Source: Streptosporangiaceae bacterium (GTDB lineage: Bacteria; Actinomycetota; Actinomycetes; Streptosporangiales; Streptosporangiaceae). Taken from it: a stretch of 10,826 nucleotides of DNA. This document shows, in pieces, positions 1,594-9,827 of the stretch. Numbering within the stretch: position 1 is the stretch's first letter; each line of letters opens with the position of its first letter. Location of the stretch: assembly GCA_030039095.1 (NCBI GenBank), contig JASHQP010000718.1:1-10826 (forward strand). The letters are read 5' to 3'. A model generated the notes under the pieces. The model was not told where the DNA came from and did not search any database. It saw nothing but the letters and a program-made list of their open reading frames with translations. The position numbers and the translations under genes are program-made.

Positions 1594-1694
1594 CCAGCGC
1601 CGATACTGGACATGATCGCTAAAGCTTGCCGAACGGCATTCCACTACTCTGCGTATTCCCTCGCGCAACCACGCCGAAAAAGGTTGTATATGGC

Positions 1695-3083
1695 ATGTCA
1701 GGATGCGACACTCAGACTATGGCGATCGCGCTGGACGGCGGCTACCCTGACGATACTCCCCTGGTCAGCTTCGCAGGTCAGCAGGCCCGCTCGCCCTTCG
1801 GGCGGCGTCGTGCACCACATCAGGAACGACTTTTTTCCTTAACAGATCCGGATTGGCGCTTTTCAGCAATAGTTTCCGGCTCTGGCGTAAATGATGACGT
1901 TGCGGCCCCTCAGGAGTGGCCCAGTTCCGGTCGGCCGGAAGAGCCCGCTGCGGACGCCAGGGATTTTGATGCCCGGCTGGTGAAGGAATCCTTCGCCCAT
2001 CTTACTGAGAATCCCGATCTGGTGATGGAGCACTTTTACGCTCGCCTTTTTGTGTGCCATCCGGAAATCCGCTCCATGTTTCCGCATGCAATGCACGACC
2101 ATATGGAGCTGGTATTCGGCGCGCTCGCCCGTATAGTGTGGCACATCGATAACCCGGAGTACCTGGCCGACTATCTCGGCCAGATCGGCCGGGATCACCG
2201 GAAATTCGGCGTCAAGGAACGGCACTATGAGCCTTTCCTGACCGTGCTCGCCGAAACGGTCCGGCATTTCAACTCCCGCAACTGGACCGCCAGGACGCAG
2301 GCGGCCTGGGACGCCGCTCTGGGCCGTGTCTGCGCCGGGATGCTGGCCGCGGCCGAGCGCGACGCGGCGCTGCAGCCGCCCTGGTGGGTCGGCGAGGTGG
2401 TGCAGCACGACCTGCGCCGGCCGGACCTCGCGGTGCTGACGATCAAGCCGGACCAGCCGCTGCGCTACACGCCGGGCCAGTACGTCGCTGTGCAGGTGCC
2501 GCGATGGCCGCGGATCTGGCGCAACTTCTCGATCGCCAACGCGCCCCGGGAGAACGGCCTGATAGACCTGCACGTCCGCGGCGTGCGCGGCGGCATGGTG
2601 AGCGGGTCGCTGGTGCACAACACGCGGCCAGGCGACACCCTGCTGCTCGGCCGGGCGTGCGGCGAGATGACCGTGCCCGGTGGCCGGGACGCCCCTCTGC
2701 TGTGCATCGCCGGCGGCACCGGGCTCGCCCCGGTCAAGGCGATCGTCGAGGGAGTGATCAACGCCAGCAAGCCGGGGAGCCGCCGGGAGATCGTGCTGTT
2801 CTTCGGGGCACGGTCCACCGACGACCTGTACGACCTGCCGGATCTGCGGGTCCTCGAGTGGATCTACTCGGGGCTCACGGTGATTCCCGTTGCCGCACAG
2901 CAGGAAGAATTTGACGGCATCAACGGGCAGCTTCCCGATGTCGCCGCTCGCTACGCGAAATGCGACGGCAGGGAAATCTTCATAAGCGGCCCCGAGCTCA
3001 TGGTGCGGCGGACGGTTTCACTTCTCGCGAACCGCGTCCAGCCGGGCCAGATCCGCCACGATCAGCCGGAATCCACGCGGTAG
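1695..3083 (+). CDS. Flavohemoprotein (globin plus FAD/NAD(P) reductase), nitric oxide dioxygenase-like
   Basis: With the ATG at 1695 the product has 462 residues. Residues 1-~88 match nothing I recognise. Residues ~90-220 form a globin domain with B10 Tyr115 (HFYARLF), CD1 Phe129 (MFP) and proximal His168 (GRDHRKFG). Residues ~228-455 form a ferredoxin-reductase module: RNFS at 276-279 for FAD (RxYS-type, with Phe in the Tyr position), GGTGLAP at 340-346 for the nicotinamide nucleotide, and SGPELM near the C-terminus. Bacterial flavohemoproteins oxidise nitric oxide to nitrate in the cytoplasm using O2 and NAD(P)H. That role is inferred here. The 5' part, including the globin domain, is much less G+C-rich than the reductase part. 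The start is uncertain. AAAAAGG lies 11 nt before 1695; a TTG at 1626 would add 23 residues, and no in-frame ATG or GTG fits directly before the globin domain. Confidence 0.88.
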   Translation: MSGCDTQTMAIALDGGYPDDTPLVSFAGQQARSPFGRRRAPHQERLFSLTDPDWRFSAIVSGSGVNDDVAAPQEWPSSGRPEEPAADARDFDARLVKESFAHLTENPDLVMEHFYARLFVCHPEIRSMFPHAMHDHMELVFGALARIVWHIDNPEYLADYLGQIGRDHRKFGVKERHYEPFLTVLAETVRHFNSRNWTARTQAAWDAALGRVCAGMLAAAERDAALQPPWWVGEVVQHDLRRPDLAVLTIKPDQPLRYTPGQYVAVQVPRWPRIWRNFSIANAPRENGLIDLHVRGVRGGMVSGSLVHNTRPGDTLLLGRACGEMTVPGGRDAPLLCIAGGTGLAPVKAIVEGVINASKPGSRREIVLFFGARSTDDLYDLPDLRVLEWIYSGLTVIPVAAQQEEFDGINGQLPDVAARYAKCDGREIFISGPELMVRRTVSLLANRVQPGQIRHDQPESTR

Positions 3084-4038: not shown

Positions 4039-4380
4039 TTACGGGCAGACCCGGCCGTTGCGCTCGAACGCCGCGTGGGTCAGCGGCATCAGACCCGCCC
4101 ACAGCGCTTCCATCTGCTCGGCCACCATCTCGATCTCACGCTGCGGGAACGAGGGGAACGCGGAGTCCGGGTGCGTCACCCGCAGGGAGAGGAAGTTCAT
4201 CAGCGCCCGCGCATTGCAGTCGGCGTCGGCGTCGACGTCGGCGAGCGACTGCTCACCCTTGGTGGAGACGCGCGCTGCCCAGATCACATCGGCGTCGGAG
4301 GCTGCATGCTTGACGAGCTCGACGGTCATGTCGCTGCGGAAGGTGATGTCCGGCATGATCGTCATTCTGCTAGGAGCCAC
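4039..4380 (-). CDS. ThyX-like protein with internal deletion of the catalytic core, probable remnant
   Basis: The 113-residue product looks like the two ends of a flavin-dependent thymidylate synthase joined in frame. Residues 9-46 (ITFRSDMTVELVKHA through AARVSTKGEQSL) match the N-terminal strand and helix of ThyX. Residues 55-113 (CNARALMNFLSLR through PLTHAAFERNGRV) match its C-terminal part. The middle, about 130 residues judged against the usual ~240-250, is missing. That part holds the RHRxxSxxxxSxR signature that binds FAD and dUMP, so dUMP methylation is not expected. The junction falls at a GCCGAC-type hexamer repeat. The frame is intact and GGAAG lies 7 nt before the GTG at 4380, so the gene may still be translated; ATG codons at 4365 and 4356 are alternatives. 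It starts 19 nt after the trpE(G) stop codon. Confidence 0.72.
   Translation of the reverse strand: MAPSRMTIMPDITFRSDMTVELVKHAASDADVIWAARVSTKGEQSLADVDADADCNARALMNFLSLRVTHPDSAFPSFPQREIEMVAEQMEALWAGLMPLTHAAFERNGRVCP
4219..4242 (-). repeat. Four-unit hexamer repeat at the ThyX deletion junction
   Basis: On the minus strand, four consecutive hexamers read GCCGAC, GTCGAC, GCCGAC, GCCGAC. They encode the alternating residues ADVDADAD (47-54). The repeat sits exactly between the N-terminal and C-terminal ThyX-like parts. Short repeats promote slippage and deletion, so it may record how the core was lost. It could equally be original ThyX sequence expanded later. Confidence 0.7.
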
Positions 4381-4399: not shown

Positions 4400-6589
4400 T
4401 CACCGGCGATTGCCGCTGCCGACCGTGTCCCGTGACCGCGCCCTGGCCAGCCGCAGCACGTTCGCGATCACCTGGTGACCGGCCCGGCCGGACGCGCTCA
4501 GGATCGACTCCGGGTGGAACTGCACTCCCCACCGCCCGGCCGCCTGGTCCTCGATCGCCATCACCACACCGTCCGGGGTGACCGCGGTGACCGAGAACCC
4601 GCCCGCAACGCCGCCCGCAACGGCGTGCAGCGAGTGATAGCGCCCGGCGGTGAACTCGGCCGGCAGGCCGGCCAGCAGGCCGCAGGCCGCCGCGCCGGCG
4701 AGCACCCGCACGGTCCCCGGCTTGCCGTGCACCGGCGTGGCCAGCAGGCCGAGTTGCCCGCCCGCGTGCTCGACCATCGCCTGCATGCCCAGGCACACAC
4801 CGAACGCGGCGAGACCCCGGTCGTCGAGCGCGGCCAGCAGCGCGTCGCAGCCGAAGTCGGCGGGCCTGCCCGGACCGGGCGAGAGCACCACCAGGCCGGG
4901 CCGGTAGTCGTCGAGCAGCGCCGGGTCGAACCCGGCCCGCAGCGTGGTCACCTCCGCGCCCGCCTCACGGAAGTAGCCGGCCAGCGTGTGCACGAACGAG
5001 TCCTGGTGGTCGACCAGGAGCACCTTCAGGCCGGCGCCGGGCGCCTCGTCGGCGCGTTCCGGCCCGTCGGACGGGGCCTGATCGCGCAGCGCCTCGAGCA
5101 GCGCCCTGGCCTTCAGCTGCGTCTCCCGTTCTTCCGCGTCAGGGTCGGAGTCGAACAGCAGCGTCGCCCCGGCCCGGACCGCGGCCGTCTCGCCGCGGAT
5201 GTGCGCGGTGCGCAGGGTCAGCCCGGTGTTCATCCCGCCGTCGAAGCCGATCATCCCGACCGCCCCGCCGTACCAGCGCCGGGGACGGTCCTCGTGGTCC
5301 TCGATGAACTGCATGGCCCAGGTCTTGGGCGCGCCGGTCACGGTCACAGCCCACATGTGGGTCAAGAACGCGTCCAGCGCGTCGAAGCCGGGCCGCAGCC
5401 GCCCCTCCACGTGGTCCACGGTGTGGATCAGCCTGCTGTAGATCTCGATCTGCCGCCGGCCGATCACCCGGACGCTGCCCGGCTCGCACACCCGGGACTT
5501 GTCGTTGCGGTCCACGTCCGTGCACATGGTCAGCTCGGACTCCTCCTTGGCGGAGGTGAGCAGGGAGCGGATGTTCTCGGCGTCGGCCAGCGCGTCGCCG
5601 CCCCGGGCGATGGTCCCGGAGATCGGGCAGGTCTCCACCCGGTCACCGGTCACCCGCACGTACATCTCCGGCGAGGCCCCGACCAGGTACTCCCCCTGGC
5701 CCAGGTTGAGGAAGAACTCGTACGGCGCCGGGTTGCGCCGCCGCAGCCGCTCGTAGAAGGCGGCGGGCGAGCCGCACGTTCCGTGAAAGACGTGGCTGGG
5801 GACCACCTCGAACAGGTCACCGCGGGCGAACCGCTCCCGCGCCTGCTCCACGATCCGAGCGAACGAGCCTGGCCTGGGTTCCTCGGGAAGTTCAGTGACC
5901 TTAACGCGGCGCGCCAGCCCGGTCTGGTCAGCCAGCGGCTGGTCAGGGTCGCGTGGCAGGCCCTCGGTCGACGCGCCGGCCGCCTCGAACTCGTAGCTGT
6001 AGCAGGTCGCGGTCTCCCGCTTGCGGTCCAGCACGTACAGCCGGTCGGGCAGGTGCAGCACGAGGTCACGCTGGTCCGCTGGCCTGGTGTGCCGCAGCCG
6101 CACCGGCTCGAACTGGAATGCCAGGTCGTACCCGAATGCACCGTAGAGGCCCAGGTGCGGGTCGGGCCCGGCGAACGCGGCGATGATCTGGCGGAGCGCC
6201 GAGAACACCGTGGGCCGCCGGCTCCGCTCCTCCTCGGTGAACGTGCCCTCAGCCTCATGGATGACGACGCTGCTGGACCCAGGGCCGCCGGGCACAGGCT
6301 CGCCGGCCTGGCCCATTGCCCCGGTTATGACGGGCAATATCAGCCGGCCGCGGGCGTTGAGCGCGGTCGCGGTGACCCTGCGGCCGCGCGCGACCAGCTC
6401 GATGCACGGGTCAACGTATGCCATGTGCCAGCGGCTGTAGCGGCCCGGGTACTCCATGCCCGAGCTCAGCACGCCGCCCCGGCGCGCCTCGACCTGCTCG
6501 GTGATCTCCTCGAGGAGGTCGGGATCGAACGAGGTGGCGGTGCGGGTCACCCGGATTCCGCCGCCGGTCTCGTACTGGGTCAGGTCCAC
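4400..6589 (-). CDS. trpE(G): Anthranilate synthase, fused TrpE-TrpG
   Basis: The 729-residue fusion makes anthranilate from chorismate and glutamine, the first committed step of tryptophan synthesis. The chorismate-binding TrpE part spans about residues 1-505, with GTIARG at 325-330, TDVDRNDKSRVCEPGSV near 357-373, and AVTVTGAPK at 414-422. The TrpG amidotransferase part spans about 521-715, with SPGPG near 570-574, nucleophile Cys599 in FGVCLGMQ, and His692 and Glu694 in VQFHPES. The fused layout and length are those of the rhizobial and azospirillal TrpE(G), also known from some Streptomyces. The N-terminal LSSGMEYPGRYSRW replaces the LLES-type Trp-feedback motif of unfused TrpE. The GTG start at 6589 has GAGGGG 5 nt upstream. 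A trp attenuator directly precedes it, which supports anthranilate synthase over phenazine-type relatives. Confidence 0.96.
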   Translation of the reverse strand: MDLTQYETGGGIRVTRTATSFDPDLLEEITEQVEARRGGVLSSGMEYPGRYSRWHMAYVDPCIELVARGRRVTATALNARGRLILPVITGAMGQAGEPVPGGPGSSSVVIHEAEGTFTEEERSRRPTVFSALRQIIAAFAGPDPHLGLYGAFGYDLAFQFEPVRLRHTRPADQRDLVLHLPDRLYVLDRKRETATCYSYEFEAAGASTEGLPRDPDQPLADQTGLARRVKVTELPEEPRPGSFARIVEQARERFARGDLFEVVPSHVFHGTCGSPAAFYERLRRRNPAPYEFFLNLGQGEYLVGASPEMYVRVTGDRVETCPISGTIARGGDALADAENIRSLLTSAKEESELTMCTDVDRNDKSRVCEPGSVRVIGRRQIEIYSRLIHTVDHVEGRLRPGFDALDAFLTHMWAVTVTGAPKTWAMQFIEDHEDRPRRWYGGAVGMIGFDGGMNTGLTLRTAHIRGETAAVRAGATLLFDSDPDAEERETQLKARALLEALRDQAPSDGPERADEAPGAGLKVLLVDHQDSFVHTLAGYFREAGAEVTTLRAGFDPALLDDYRPGLVVLSPGPGRPADFGCDALLAALDDRGLAAFGVCLGMQAMVEHAGGQLGLLATPVHGKPGTVRVLAGAAACGLLAGLPAEFTAGRYHSLHAVAGGVAGGFSVTAVTPDGVVMAIEDQAAGRWGVQFHPESILSASGRAGHQVIANVLRLARARSRDTVGSGNRR

Positions 6590-6630
6590 GTCGGCCCCTC
6601 GGCTATGGGCCCGGGTGCCGACGGTGCGGG

Positions 6631-6665
6631 CAACAGAAACGACCGCCGGCTACCGGGCGGTCGTT
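6631..6665 (-). terminator. Attenuator terminator hairpin of trpE(G)
   Basis: Perfect 10-bp arms, AACGACCGCC (6665-6656) and GGCGGTCGTT (6647-6638), enclose an 8-nt loop. On the minus strand the second arm runs into TCTGTTG, giving a modest T-rich tail. The hairpin lies 48 nt before the trpE(G) start codon. Confidence 0.88.
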
Positions 6666-6701
6666 GTCAGGATCTGCAGCGTGCGCGAGCCAGCAACCGC
6701 C

Positions 6702-6743
6702 TCAGGGGCGGCGCCACCAGCCTTCGGTGCGGATCGCGTGCAT
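6702..6743 (-). CDS. trpL: Tryptophan leader peptide (13 residues)
   Basis: The short frame encodes MHAIRTEGWWRRP and a TGA stop. Two adjacent Trp codons (TGG TGG, 6719-6714) lie just before the first attenuator stem. Its role is to sense charged tRNA-Trp by ribosome stalling, and the peptide itself is probably without function. No Shine-Dalgarno sequence precedes the ATG at 6743. A -10-like TAGGCT ends 6 nt before it, so the mRNA may begin at or near the ATG. The start fits the attenuator geometry: the stop codon lies in the loop between segments 1 and 2. Confidence 0.88.
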   Translation of the reverse strand: MHAIRTEGWWRRP

Positions 6744-6749
6744 GGCGAG

Positions 6750-6755
6750 AGCCTA
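6750..6755 (-). promoter_or_regulatory. Candidate -10 element for the trp leader transcript
   Basis: TAGGCT fits the actinobacterial TANNNT -10 pattern and ends 6 nt before the leader ATG. Only 56 nt separate the upstream gene's stop codon from that ATG, so the promoter must lie here or inside the end of that gene. No good -35 hexamer was found at the expected distance. Confidence 0.4.
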
Positions 6756-6799
6756 GCAGGTCAGGCCGGGGCGCTGGCGGTGGCCGCGCTACCTGAAAA

Positions 6800-7795
6800 C
6801 TAGAAGTCGACCCAGGTTCCCGCACCCCGGCCGGTGGCGTTGCGGTAGGCGAGCCTGGCCGCCACCAGGTCCTCGATGGCCAGGCCGAGCGATTCGAAGA
6901 CGGTGATCTCGGTGTCCCCGCTGCGGCCCGGCGCGGTGCCGGTGAGCAGCTCACCGAGCTCGGCCCGGACGTGGTCAGGCCCGATCGCGCCTTCTGCCCG
7001 AGCCAGGACGTAGTCGCCCGCCTCGTTGGCGACCGACTCCCGGCTGTCCGCGAACACGGCGGCGGCCGCCATCGTCTCGGCGTCGAGTTCGCGTGCCTGG
7101 GGCACGCACGCTCCGACGGCGTTGACGTGCGCGCCCGGCGCCAGCCAGTCCCTGCGCAGCACGGGCTCGGCCGAGCTCGTGGCGGTCACGACGATCCCGG
7201 CCCCGGCGACCGCGTCGGCCGCCGAGTCGCACGCGGTCACCGGCACGGAGGTGTGCTCTCGCATGTCCTCGGCGAACCGGCGCGCCTTGTCCGGGTTCCG
7301 GCCCGCGACCCGGACCCGGTCCAGCGGCCGCGCATTTGCGACGGCCAGCAGGTGCGACCGAGCCTGCACGCCGGTGCCGATGATCGCCAGTTCCGCCGCG
7401 TCGGCCCGGGCCAGCAGCCCGGTGGCGACGGCCGACACGGCCGCGGTGCGTATCTCCGTGACCGCCGACGCGTTGAGCATGGCAAGCGGCTCGCCGGTCT
7501 GCGCGCTGGACAGCAGCACCACGCCCTGGTGCGAGTCAAGCCCGCGGGCCGGGTTGCCGCCGAAGATGCAGATGGCCTTCAGGCCGTAGGCCGCCGTGGC
7601 ATCCTGCCCGTCGGCGAGGTAGGCGGGCATCAGCGCCATCATCCCAGCCGCCGCCGGCGGCCTGATGATCGTCCGCAGCGGCTGGTGTGCCTGGCCGCTC
7701 TGGTACGCGACCAGCGCTTCCCGCATCGCGGCGGTGCACTCCCCGTACGGCAGCAGGGCATGCACGTCGCGGGCGCCGAGGACCAGCAGCTTCAT
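6800..7795 (-). CDS. Ornithine cyclodeaminase / mu-crystallin family protein
   Basis: The 331-residue length is usual for the family. It shows the substrate-domain block LKAICIFGGNPARGL with Lys73, Arg116 in TEIRTAAVSA, and the Rossmann motif IGTGVQA (139-145) for NAD(P). The family includes ornithine cyclodeaminase (ornithine to proline plus ammonia), alanine dehydrogenase-like enzymes and ketimine reductases. The aspartate that true ornithine cyclodeaminases carry in a GGD(C)P segment is not seen: the stretch reads NAVGACVPQARELD (225-238). An imine reductase or amino-acid dehydrogenase role is therefore more likely than cyclodeamination. The ATG at 7795 has GGAGG 5 nt upstream; the frame is open to 7978 but inside ftsH. 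The gene begins 34 nt after the ftsH stop codon, so the two are probably co-transcribed. The substrate is unknown. Confidence 0.88.
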   Translation of the reverse strand: MKLLVLGARDVHALLPYGECTAAMREALVAYQSGQAHQPLRTIIRPPAAAGMMALMPAYLADGQDATAAYGLKAICIFGGNPARGLDSHQGVVLLSSAQTGEPLAMLNASAVTEIRTAAVSAVATGLLARADAAELAIIGTGVQARSHLLAVANARPLDRVRVAGRNPDKARRFAEDMREHTSVPVTACDSAADAVAGAGIVVTATSSAEPVLRRDWLAPGAHVNAVGACVPQARELDAETMAAAAVFADSRESVANEAGDYVLARAEGAIGPDHVRAELGELLTGTAPGRSGDTEITVFESLGLAIEDLVAARLAYRNATGRGAGTWVDF

Positions 7796-7829
7796 CCGGT
7801 CCTCCGCCCTGTTGCCGGTTTCCGCCTCG

Positions 7830-9827
7830 TCACTGGTGCCCGGACGCGGGAGGCTCGGACGACCGCGACGGCCGGGCACCGTCGTGCGTGGTGGCGGCGT
7901 GCGGGGCGATCGCCATTTCCTCGGGCCGGTGCTCGGGCGCCGGCCTGCCGACGATCCGGTACACGTCGGAACCGTCAACGGTCTCCTTCTCCAGCAGCAG
8001 GTCGACGAGCTGCTCGAGCTCGCTGCGGTGGTCGCGGATCAGGTCCACCGCGTGCTGCTCGGCCTCGCGCAGCAGCCGCGACACCTCGCTGTCGATGGTG
8101 GCCTGTGTCGCCTCGGCGAACGGCCGGCTCGAAAAGCCCTGCCCGCCGCCGCCCAGAAACGCCGACCCGCCTTCGGGATACCCGATCGGCCCCAGCGCGG
8201 GCGACAACCCGAATTCGCGGACCATCTTGGTCGCCAGGTCGGTCGCGCTGGCCAGGTCGTTGGCGGCACCGGTCGAGCCCTGGCCGAACTCGACCAGCTC
8301 GGCGGCGCGCCCGCCCATCCGCACCGCCAGCGAATCGGTGAGATAGTCCTCGGCGTAGAGGTGCCGCTCGTCCACCGGCAGCTGCTCGGTCACCCCGAGC
8401 GTCTGCCCGGCCGGCAGGATCGTGACCTTCGCCACCGGATCGGCGTGATCCGACAGCGCGGCGACGATCGCGTGCCCGGACTCGTGGATCGCCACCGCGT
8501 GCTTCTCGTCCGGCAGCAGCACGTTCGAGCCCTCGCGCCGGCCGAGCAGGATCCGGTCCCTGGCCATGTCGAAGTCGTCCGCGGACAGCACATCGCGGTT
8601 GCCGCGCACCGCGTTGATCGCCGCCTCGTTCGCGAGGTTCGCCAGGTCGGCGCCGGAGAACCCCGGCGTCCCCCGGGCCACCACGTTCAGATTGACGTCG
8701 GGGCCCAGTTTCTTGTCCCGGCAGTGCACGGCGAGGATCGCGGCGCGCTCGGGCAGCGTCGGCAGCGGGATCGTGACCTGCCGGTCGAACCGGCCGGGCC
8801 GCAGCAGCGCCGGGTCCAGGATCTCGGGCCGGTTCGTGGCGCCCAGCACGACGATCCCCTGCGCCACGTCGAACCCGTCCATCTCCGCCAGCAACTGGTT
8901 CAGGGTCTGCTCGCGCTCGTCGTTGGAGACCACGGCGCCCGACCCCGACCGGCGCTGCCCGATCGCGTCGATCTCGTCGATGAAGATGATCGCTGGCGCC
9001 CGCTTGCGCGCCTCGCTGAACAGGTCGCGTACCCGCGCCGCGCCGACCCCGACGAACAGCTCAACGAAGCTGGAGCCGGTGACCGAGAAGAACGGGACCG
9101 AGGCCTCCCCCGCCACGGCCCGCGCCAGCAGCGTCTTGCCGGTACCCGGCGGCCCGATCATCAGCATCCCGCGCGGCGCCACCGCGCCCGCGCGCTGGTA
9201 CCGAGCGGGATTGCGCAGGAAGTCGATCACCTCGCCGATCTCGGACTTCACGCCCTCGTACCCGGCCACGTCGCTGAACTTGGTCGACGGCCGCTCGGCG
9301 TCGAAGACCTTGGCCCGCGACCGGCCGACGCCGAGCACGCCCTGCAGGCCAGCCCCGCCGCCCGCGCCCCGGCTCATGCGCCGGAACAGCCAGAACACGA
9401 GGATGAACGGCAGCAGCAGGATCAGCCAGTACAGCAGGTCGGTGCCCAGGCCCGAGCTCGGCGGGTTCGCGGATATCTTGGCCCCGTCGGAGGTCAGCTG
9501 CTGGGTGAGAGTGGTGGTCGGCGAGCCGGGGATGACGGTCTCGTACGACTTCCCGTTCGTCAGCTCGCCGGAGGCCGAGGTGTTGGCACCGCTGGAGCCG
9601 CTCGCGAACACCACCGTCTTGATCTTGTGCGCGCTGGAGTCCGCGATGAACTGCGAGTAGGTCAGGCTGACCGGCGTCTTGACGTTGATCCCCGGCAGGA
9701 TCAGCCACAGCGCGAAGAACGCAAGCAGCGCGATCGGCCATAGCCAGTGCCGCCATGCCGGCGGTGGTGGTGGTGCCGAGTTCACGGGCTTGTCGCCCGG
9801 TGGCGGCGGGTTCGGCTGTTTGCTCAT
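7830..9827 (-). CDS. ftsH: ATP-dependent zinc metalloprotease FtsH
   Basis: The 665-residue protein is a membrane-bound AAA+ protease that degrades membrane and short-lived cytoplasmic proteins. A Pro-rich cytoplasmic N-terminus (1-24) is followed by a membrane segment (~28-45), an external domain (~46-129) and a second membrane segment (~131-148). The AAA module has Walker A GPPGTGKT (225-232), a pore loop around FVG (258-260), Walker B IIFIDE (280-285) and arginine fingers in LLRPGRFD (Arg343, Arg346). The zinc site is HESGH (448-452; Ser in the usual Ala position), with the third ligand probably Asp524 in GAANDL. The C-terminus (about 625-665) is polar and probably disordered. The folE and tilS/hpt genes that often accompany the main actinobacterial ftsH are not beside it here, so it may be a second copy. 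It begins at the ATG at 9827; no strong ribosome-binding site is visible. Confidence 0.96.
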   Translation of the reverse strand: MSKQPNPPPPGDKPVNSAPPPPPAWRHWLWPIALLAFFALWLILPGINVKTPVSLTYSQFIADSSAHKIKTVVFASGSSGANTSASGELTNGKSYETVIPGSPTTTLTQQLTSDGAKISANPPSSGLGTDLLYWLILLLPFILVFWLFRRMSRGAGGGAGLQGVLGVGRSRAKVFDAERPSTKFSDVAGYEGVKSEIGEVIDFLRNPARYQRAGAVAPRGMLMIGPPGTGKTLLARAVAGEASVPFFSVTGSSFVELFVGVGAARVRDLFSEARKRAPAIIFIDEIDAIGQRRSGSGAVVSNDEREQTLNQLLAEMDGFDVAQGIVVLGATNRPEILDPALLRPGRFDRQVTIPLPTLPERAAILAVHCRDKKLGPDVNLNVVARGTPGFSGADLANLANEAAINAVRGNRDVLSADDFDMARDRILLGRREGSNVLLPDEKHAVAIHESGHAIVAALSDHADPVAKVTILPAGQTLGVTEQLPVDERHLYAEDYLTDSLAVRMGGRAAELVEFGQGSTGAANDLASATDLATKMVREFGLSPALGPIGYPEGGSAFLGGGGQGFSSRPFAEATQATIDSEVSRLLREAEQHAVDLIRDHRSELEQLVDLLLEKETVDGSDVYRIVGRPAPEHRPEEMAIAPHAATTHDGARPSRSSEPPASGHQ

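Follow-up and report, generated by a model that had tools for sequence, protein, structure and literature searches.

A conserved (W)WWRR leader as the probable tryptophan attenuator of trpE(G) in Streptosporangiaceae and related actinobacteria

Upstream of trpE(G) in a Streptosporangiaceae bacterium lies a compact leader from whose architecture we infer a ribosome-mediated transcription attenuator of this gene, working through ribosome stalling and termination in response to tryptophan, a reading to which we give a probability of about 0.92. It was found in a stretch of 10,826 nucleotides (contig JASHQP010000718.1, hereafter the window), where a first-pass annotation had listed a 13-residue frame with tandem Trp codons, a 1:2 stem, a competing 2:3 pairing and a 10-bp terminator. 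All of these parts are present on the minus strand in the order proposed, and the annotated span, 6631..6755, matches the whole element, which runs from 6755 to about 6630 when the -10-like box is included. The parts themselves, their conservation in relatives, a compensatory pair in the terminator and a near-fixed spacing between control codons and strand 2 are direct observations. In this regard, the spacing and the order-wide conservation, together with a likely leaderless start, go beyond what had been annotated.

The leader ATG (at 6743) is located 56 nt past the stop of an ornithine cyclodeaminase-family gene (6800-7978, minus strand), and 112 nt of the same strand separate the leader stop from the start of trpE(G) (Table 1). 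The product of this gene, which had been annotated as a fused anthranilate synthase, indeed matches TIGR01815 (TrpE-clade3) at 957.9 bits, over a cut-off of 739.15, as well as PRK13566. A close view of the leader shows that its 1:2 hairpin spans the stop codon of the leader frame, that the terminator AACGACCGCC...GGCGGUCGUU comprises 10 bp, or 12 bp counting CG:CG at the loop, and that a possible 2:3 pairing, GGCGGUUG:CGACCGCC, would include 8 pairs, one of them G-U. Elsewhere in the window, a 113-residue ThyX-like frame (4039-4380, minus strand) matches a ThyX-like gene in its N-terminal and C-terminal parts, which abut here, and the same two parts are separated by about 370 nt in three other loci (L103, L106 and L112); by its sequence, the copy of the window looks like an internal deletion. 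A flavohaemoglobin-like protein with globin, FAD- and NAD-binding domains is encoded at 1626-3083 of the plus strand.

Table 1. Features of the trpE(G) leader region, in coordinates of the window
Feature	Position	Strand	Basis or remark
-10-like box TAGGCT, 6 nt 5' of the leader ATG	6750..6755	-	read in sequence
Leader peptide ORF MHAIRTEGWWRRP, 13 residues, stop TGA	6702..6743	-	read in sequence; conserved
Tandem Trp control codons UGG UGG	6714..6719	-	TGGTGG invariant in 79 aligned sequences
Strand 1 (CGCCGCCC), opening with Arg-Arg codons CGC CGC directly after the Trp pair	6706..6713	-	
Strand 2 (GGCGGUUG), starting immediately past the stop codon	6694..6701	-	alignment, pair counts
Basal 5'-end helix, 3' side UCGCG	6684..6688	-	pairs with CGCGA 6738-6734; minimum-energy fold, aligned helix
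Strand 3 (AACGACCGCC), terminator 5' arm	6656..6665	-	fold
Strand 4 (GGCGGUCGUU), terminator 3' arm	6638..6647	-	fold and pairing in 79 sequences
U-rich tail UUUCUGUU	6632..6639	-	first two bases double as the end of the 10-bp stem
trpE(G), anthranilate synthase components I and II fused	4400..6589	-	GTG start at 6589, 729 residues

The window alone would not decide whether such an arrangement has arisen by chance, with a WW frame and a hairpin fortuitously present in GC-rich intergenic DNA. A 118-nt fold of the window was no more stable than its shuffled versions (z -0.47, with 56 of 200 shuffles at least as stable), which makes the single-sequence fold indistinguishable from shuffles, and it was thus dropped as support. 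Moreover, strict terminator and promoter scans of 6500-6900 gave no match, and the terminator features, a GC-rich stem followed by UUUCUGUU, are present and conserved, yet went unflagged by the strict scan. Against these results stand the conservation of the element in relatives and its recovery by a held-out covariance model, both described below, because of which we regard a chance origin as very improbable.

The conservation was followed in 150 genomes sampled from the order of the genome carrying locus L001, which we take to be the Streptosporangiales from a family list and the usual placement of the genera. A trpE(G) gene was detected at E<=1e-100 in 147 of them; the upstream regions of 145 came through the genome set, and L001 and L003 stand for the remaining two genomes. 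By title, Streptosporangiaceae and Nocardiopsaceae bacteria, Spirillospora, Actinomadura and Streptosporangium are among the nearest loci. A short frame containing WW precedes trpE(G) in 143 of the 145 genome-sampled regions, and in 162 of 164 once 18 hand-picked actinobacterial loci and the window are added, compared with 8 of 164 antisense regions and 15 of 820 shuffled ones. As for the two exceptions within the 145, L209 has the usual layout with a single Trp codon, and L162 keeps the WW but has lost the early stop, its leader frame being predicted to continue through the terminator. Beyond the order, 25 loci that are actinobacterial by title were found among 80 trpE(G)-like loci, 18 of which were used; the 7 set aside (L022, L029, L046, L062, L069, L070 and L078), three of them from Streptomyces, showed no WW frame.

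The 163 leaders gathered in this way (153 unique, the remainder being duplicates) carry a run of WW in 139 cases and of WWW in 24, directly followed by Arg-Arg in 160. The residues upstream of WWRR are variable in the alignment, and the WWRR block and the strands are constant. The spacing between the last Trp codon and strand 2 is near-fixed: among the 153 unique leaders, 123 have 14 nt and 22 have 12 nt. Setting aside four leaders of more than 20 residues left 159, which were reduced to 79 representatives for alignment; the terminator was not found by script in seven sequences of the leader set. The first-pass annotation had given, as one outcome that would refute it, homologues whose leaders have neither Trp codons nor covarying stems. 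The comparison did not refute it, as both Trp codons and stems persist across the sampled order.

Within the 79 sequences, the terminator core (columns 132-137:152-157) is paired in 99.6% of cells and contains a compensatory pair at columns 132:157, with A-U in 43 sequences and G-C in 34. The 1:2 helix (columns 55-60:68-73) is paired in 97.3% of cells with little variation. The 2:3 core comprises five near-invariant pairs, formed in 96-100% of the sequences, and a sixth one, for which 33 sequences have C-G, 9 (including the window) U-A, 1 U-G and 36 a broken pair. Covariation of 2:3 comes mainly from one column pair, and a register slid by +3 gave a similar percentage and score. Since the core hardly varies, an unvarying pair does not prove pairing, and the slid register behaves alike, the case for 2:3 is one of complementarity and logic more than of covariation; the mutually exclusive 2:3 and 3:4 pairings are both kept in relatives, and covariation support for the former is thin. 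Taken as a whole, the structure that we named is paired in 91.0% of cells of the 79 representatives, compared with 88.8% on average for column shuffles (none of 500 as high), a comparison in which the shuffles ignore relatedness and the structure had been named after reading the same 79 sequences. When slid along the alignment, the same structure is 33-62% paired. The number of further pair types was not above column shuffles, 254 of 500 being as high.

Two covariance models were used. As the window is part of the first one (R1), the clean test comes from the second one (R2), built from 48 of the 79 sequences, chosen by the author, which omits the window, L001, L002 and L087 along with 27 others, many of these being less typical. 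This held-out model scores the window at 44.0 bits (E 2.7e-9). It also recovers L001, L002 and L087, like the window, at E 8e-9 or better, and L015 at 4.7e-9. Weaker matches were obtained for L055 (E 0.0025) and for L019 (E 0.007), the latter lying off the start of its leader. A search of the window against Rfam 15 at E values up to 10 returned three unrelated sub-threshold matches, none of them at the leader, and nine relatives gave no match to Rfam 15 at the gathering cut-off.

Searches with R1 also led to similar leaders at other genes. Among 61 genomes of the order, this model gave a match in 59 at E<=0.1, which in one of them (G007) lies before trpS; in the class, order members included, it matched 48 of 197 genomes at E<=0.001. 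Fourteen further loci were read and the downstream gene was checked in six of them: three correspond to trpS, one to trpD, one has a sub-cut-off likeness to anthranilate synthase and one is without a family match. Trp-codon leaders with hairpins precede trpS at L252, L253 and L255, in genomes of the same order; L252 carries WW, and L253 (MRIRSLQCWLAC) and L255 carry a single Trp codon. At L254 (G037:C59) a similar Trp leader, MFAHLSQWWPAS, at about position 523, precedes trpD (TIGR01245), a target that goes unnamed in the consulted passages of PMC8079986, PMC7298713 and PMC1262725.

The start of the transcript can be predicted from the -10-like box. Of the 163 leaders, 155 have a TANNNT motif 6-7 nt ahead of their start and 161 have one at 6-9 nt, both being upper figures because the script preferred starts with a box; as a background, the motif occurs at 6-7 nt for 21 of 2384 other ATG or GTG triplets of the same regions. 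No -35 element was seen by eye, and a strict sigma-70 scan of 6500-6900 was empty. A box at this distance predicts a leaderless transcript, with the first nucleotide of the mRNA probably being the A of the leader ATG or one adjacent to it.

The attenuation reading would operate as follows. When charged tRNA-Trp is scarce, the leading ribosome would stall on the WW codons, with its leading edge covering strand 1, that is, the RR codons, and not strand 2, which would be free to pair with strand 3 once this is made; strand 4 would then remain single and the polymerase would continue into trpE(G). When Trp is plentiful, the ribosome would reach the stop codon, immediately before strand 2, and cover this strand, allowing 3:4 to pair and transcription to stop near 6632. 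If no ribosome is present, the 1:2 hairpin would form and termination would be the default. The near-fixed distance from WW to strand 2 would let a ribosome stalled on Trp cover strand 1 only. The conserved Arg-Arg with which the leader ends, as WWRR, may find its reason in the same geometry, since the Arg codons are strand 1.

Folding of the window with ribosome edges assumed from toeprinting practice gave a 2:3 probability of 0.98 when the ribosome was placed at W9 or W10 and the transcript ended at strand 3. With the ribosome at the stop codon, 2:3 fell to 0.0 and 3:4 reached 0.93 in the full transcript. The placement of the control codons therefore fits the switch under the assumed edges, a stalled ribosome freeing strand 2 and a ribosome at the stop covering it. 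Once strand 4 is present, equilibrium favours the terminator even with the ribosome stalled (2:3 0.0, 3:4 0.93). Because the terminator wins at equilibrium in every case, the switch must be decided during transcription. The choice is likewise made during transcription in the classical attenuation model.

It could be argued that the leader acts mainly on translation, with a downstream hairpin that hides the Shine-Dalgarno and start of trpE(G) until leader translation or read-through exposes them. In the window (6590-6625, minus strand), GUCGGC...GCCGAC flanks the Shine-Dalgarno just 5' of the GTG, and pairing of this region exceeds nearly all shuffles there (2 of 40 at least as high) and in L001 and L010 (0 of 40 each). 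The effect is slight across the 53 usable representatives of the 79, with a mean of 0.57 versus 0.47 in shuffles, 38 of the 53 lying above the shuffle mean and only 9 reaching rank 2 or better; it is the terminator that constitutes the strongly conserved element, and we regard a mainly translational role as unlikely. A possible second layer of control by this hairpin is likewise weak across the representatives. Strand 4 might also pair with the strand that faces the Shine-Dalgarno, an idea noted by eye in the window and set aside, as no such pairing was seen by eye in some other clades.

The short transcript might also, or mainly, work in trans, like the rnTrpL RNA and the peTrpL peptide of Sinorhizobium, and termination near 6632 would in fact release an RNA of ~110 nt opening with a leaderless ORF, the layout of rnTrpL (PMC7298713). 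The variable residues before WWRR, set against the fixed WWRR block and strands, fit control in cis, and a trans role, improbable on the whole, would more likely be additional to attenuation than replace it.

Together with the attenuator proper, a further helix at the 5' end deserves attention. In many relatives the first nine bases of the leader, AUGCGAACC, are the reverse complement of GGUUCGCAU, located after strand 2. The resulting helix, AUGCGAACC:GGUUCGCAU, is paired in 82.1% of cells, with double changes in five of its nine pairs (79 sequences), and its UGCG:CGCA part was found unaided by RNAalifold in the second alignment and was missing in the first. In the 75 usable representatives of the 79, the first nine bases are paired at 0.73 versus 0.35 in shuffles, with rank 2 or better in 47, and the start codon at 0.66 versus 0.26. 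The window departs from this pattern: its first nine bases are paired at 0.44 versus 0.48 in shuffles (26 of 40 at least as high), its start codon at 0.16 versus 0.26, and its helix is shifted (CGCGA:UCGCG), so that the fold leaves the AUG free, whereas the helix of many relatives includes it. A 5'-end helix closing over the AUG of the window itself was accordingly rejected, as the pairing is not above shuffles. For most relatives, we raise as a tentative and rather doubtful idea that the 5'-terminal AUG resides in the closing strand of the 1:2 hairpin, and that the switch would sense leaderless initiation together with Trp supply; if true, ribosome entry on the 5'-terminal AUG would compete with a hairpin hiding that AUG. 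The conserved AUGCGA may instead reflect a start-site preference of leaderless messages, a competing reason that is equally compatible with the data.

With respect to known systems, E. coli trpL follows a four-strand logic (1:2, 2:3 and 3:4) with a WW leader peptide. Its leader has a Shine-Dalgarno and an untranslated 5' part, targets a whole operon and is accompanied by TrpR repression. The leader described here shares the four-strand logic and the WW, and differs in its probable leaderless start and in having trpE(G) as first gene.

Other precedents come from rhizobia and Streptomyces, both invoked in the first-pass annotation and both borne out by the literature. In Sinorhizobium meliloti, trpE(G) is stated to be under attenuation, with a 14-residue tandem-Trp leader whose short transcript starts at the leader ATG (PMC7298713). 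The present leader resembles rnTrpL/peTrpL in its trpE(G) target, tandem Trp codons, short frame and, as predicted here, leaderless start; the S. meliloti leader has WWW and is otherwise unlike it, the phylum of the host differs, and trans functions, hypothetical here, have been demonstrated there. PMC8079986 describes in S. lividans the leaderless Trp leaders trpL1, before trpE and with two hairpins and a U-rich stretch downstream, and trpL2, before trpS. Trp attenuators with complementary triples have been predicted in Streptomyces and Corynebacterium in PMC1262725, which cites experimental work on trp attenuators in C. glutamicum and S. venezuelae. The Streptomyces attenuators are alike in their short Trp-codon leaders and leaderless starts (predicted in our case), but their leader MFAHSTRNWWWTAHPAAH differs from one with (W)WWRR near the stop, and the triple published for Streptomyces and Corynebacterium, gGCC-rGCy-GGCC, differs from CCGCC-GGCGG-CCGCC here (PMC1262725). 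At one further locus (L257), trpE lies behind a Streptomyces-like leader, its match to TrpE-clade3 being only below the cut-off. Literature naming Streptosporangi*, Nocardiopsis or Nonomuraea, covering few subscription papers, yielded no description of such a leader, PMC9147431 being by its title a strain survey.

Altogether, the essentials were already known: the mechanism, the leaderless leader and the trpE(G) target from S. meliloti, and leaderless Trp leaders from Streptomyces. What the sequences add is a family with its own (W)WWRR leader in the sampled order, without a match in Rfam 15. Trp attenuation as known from S. meliloti and Streptomyces would thereby reach the sampled part of another actinobacterial order. 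The alignment is good enough for building an RNA-family model, and the start-codon pairing conserved among relatives prompts the question of how leaderless initiation and attenuation influence each other.
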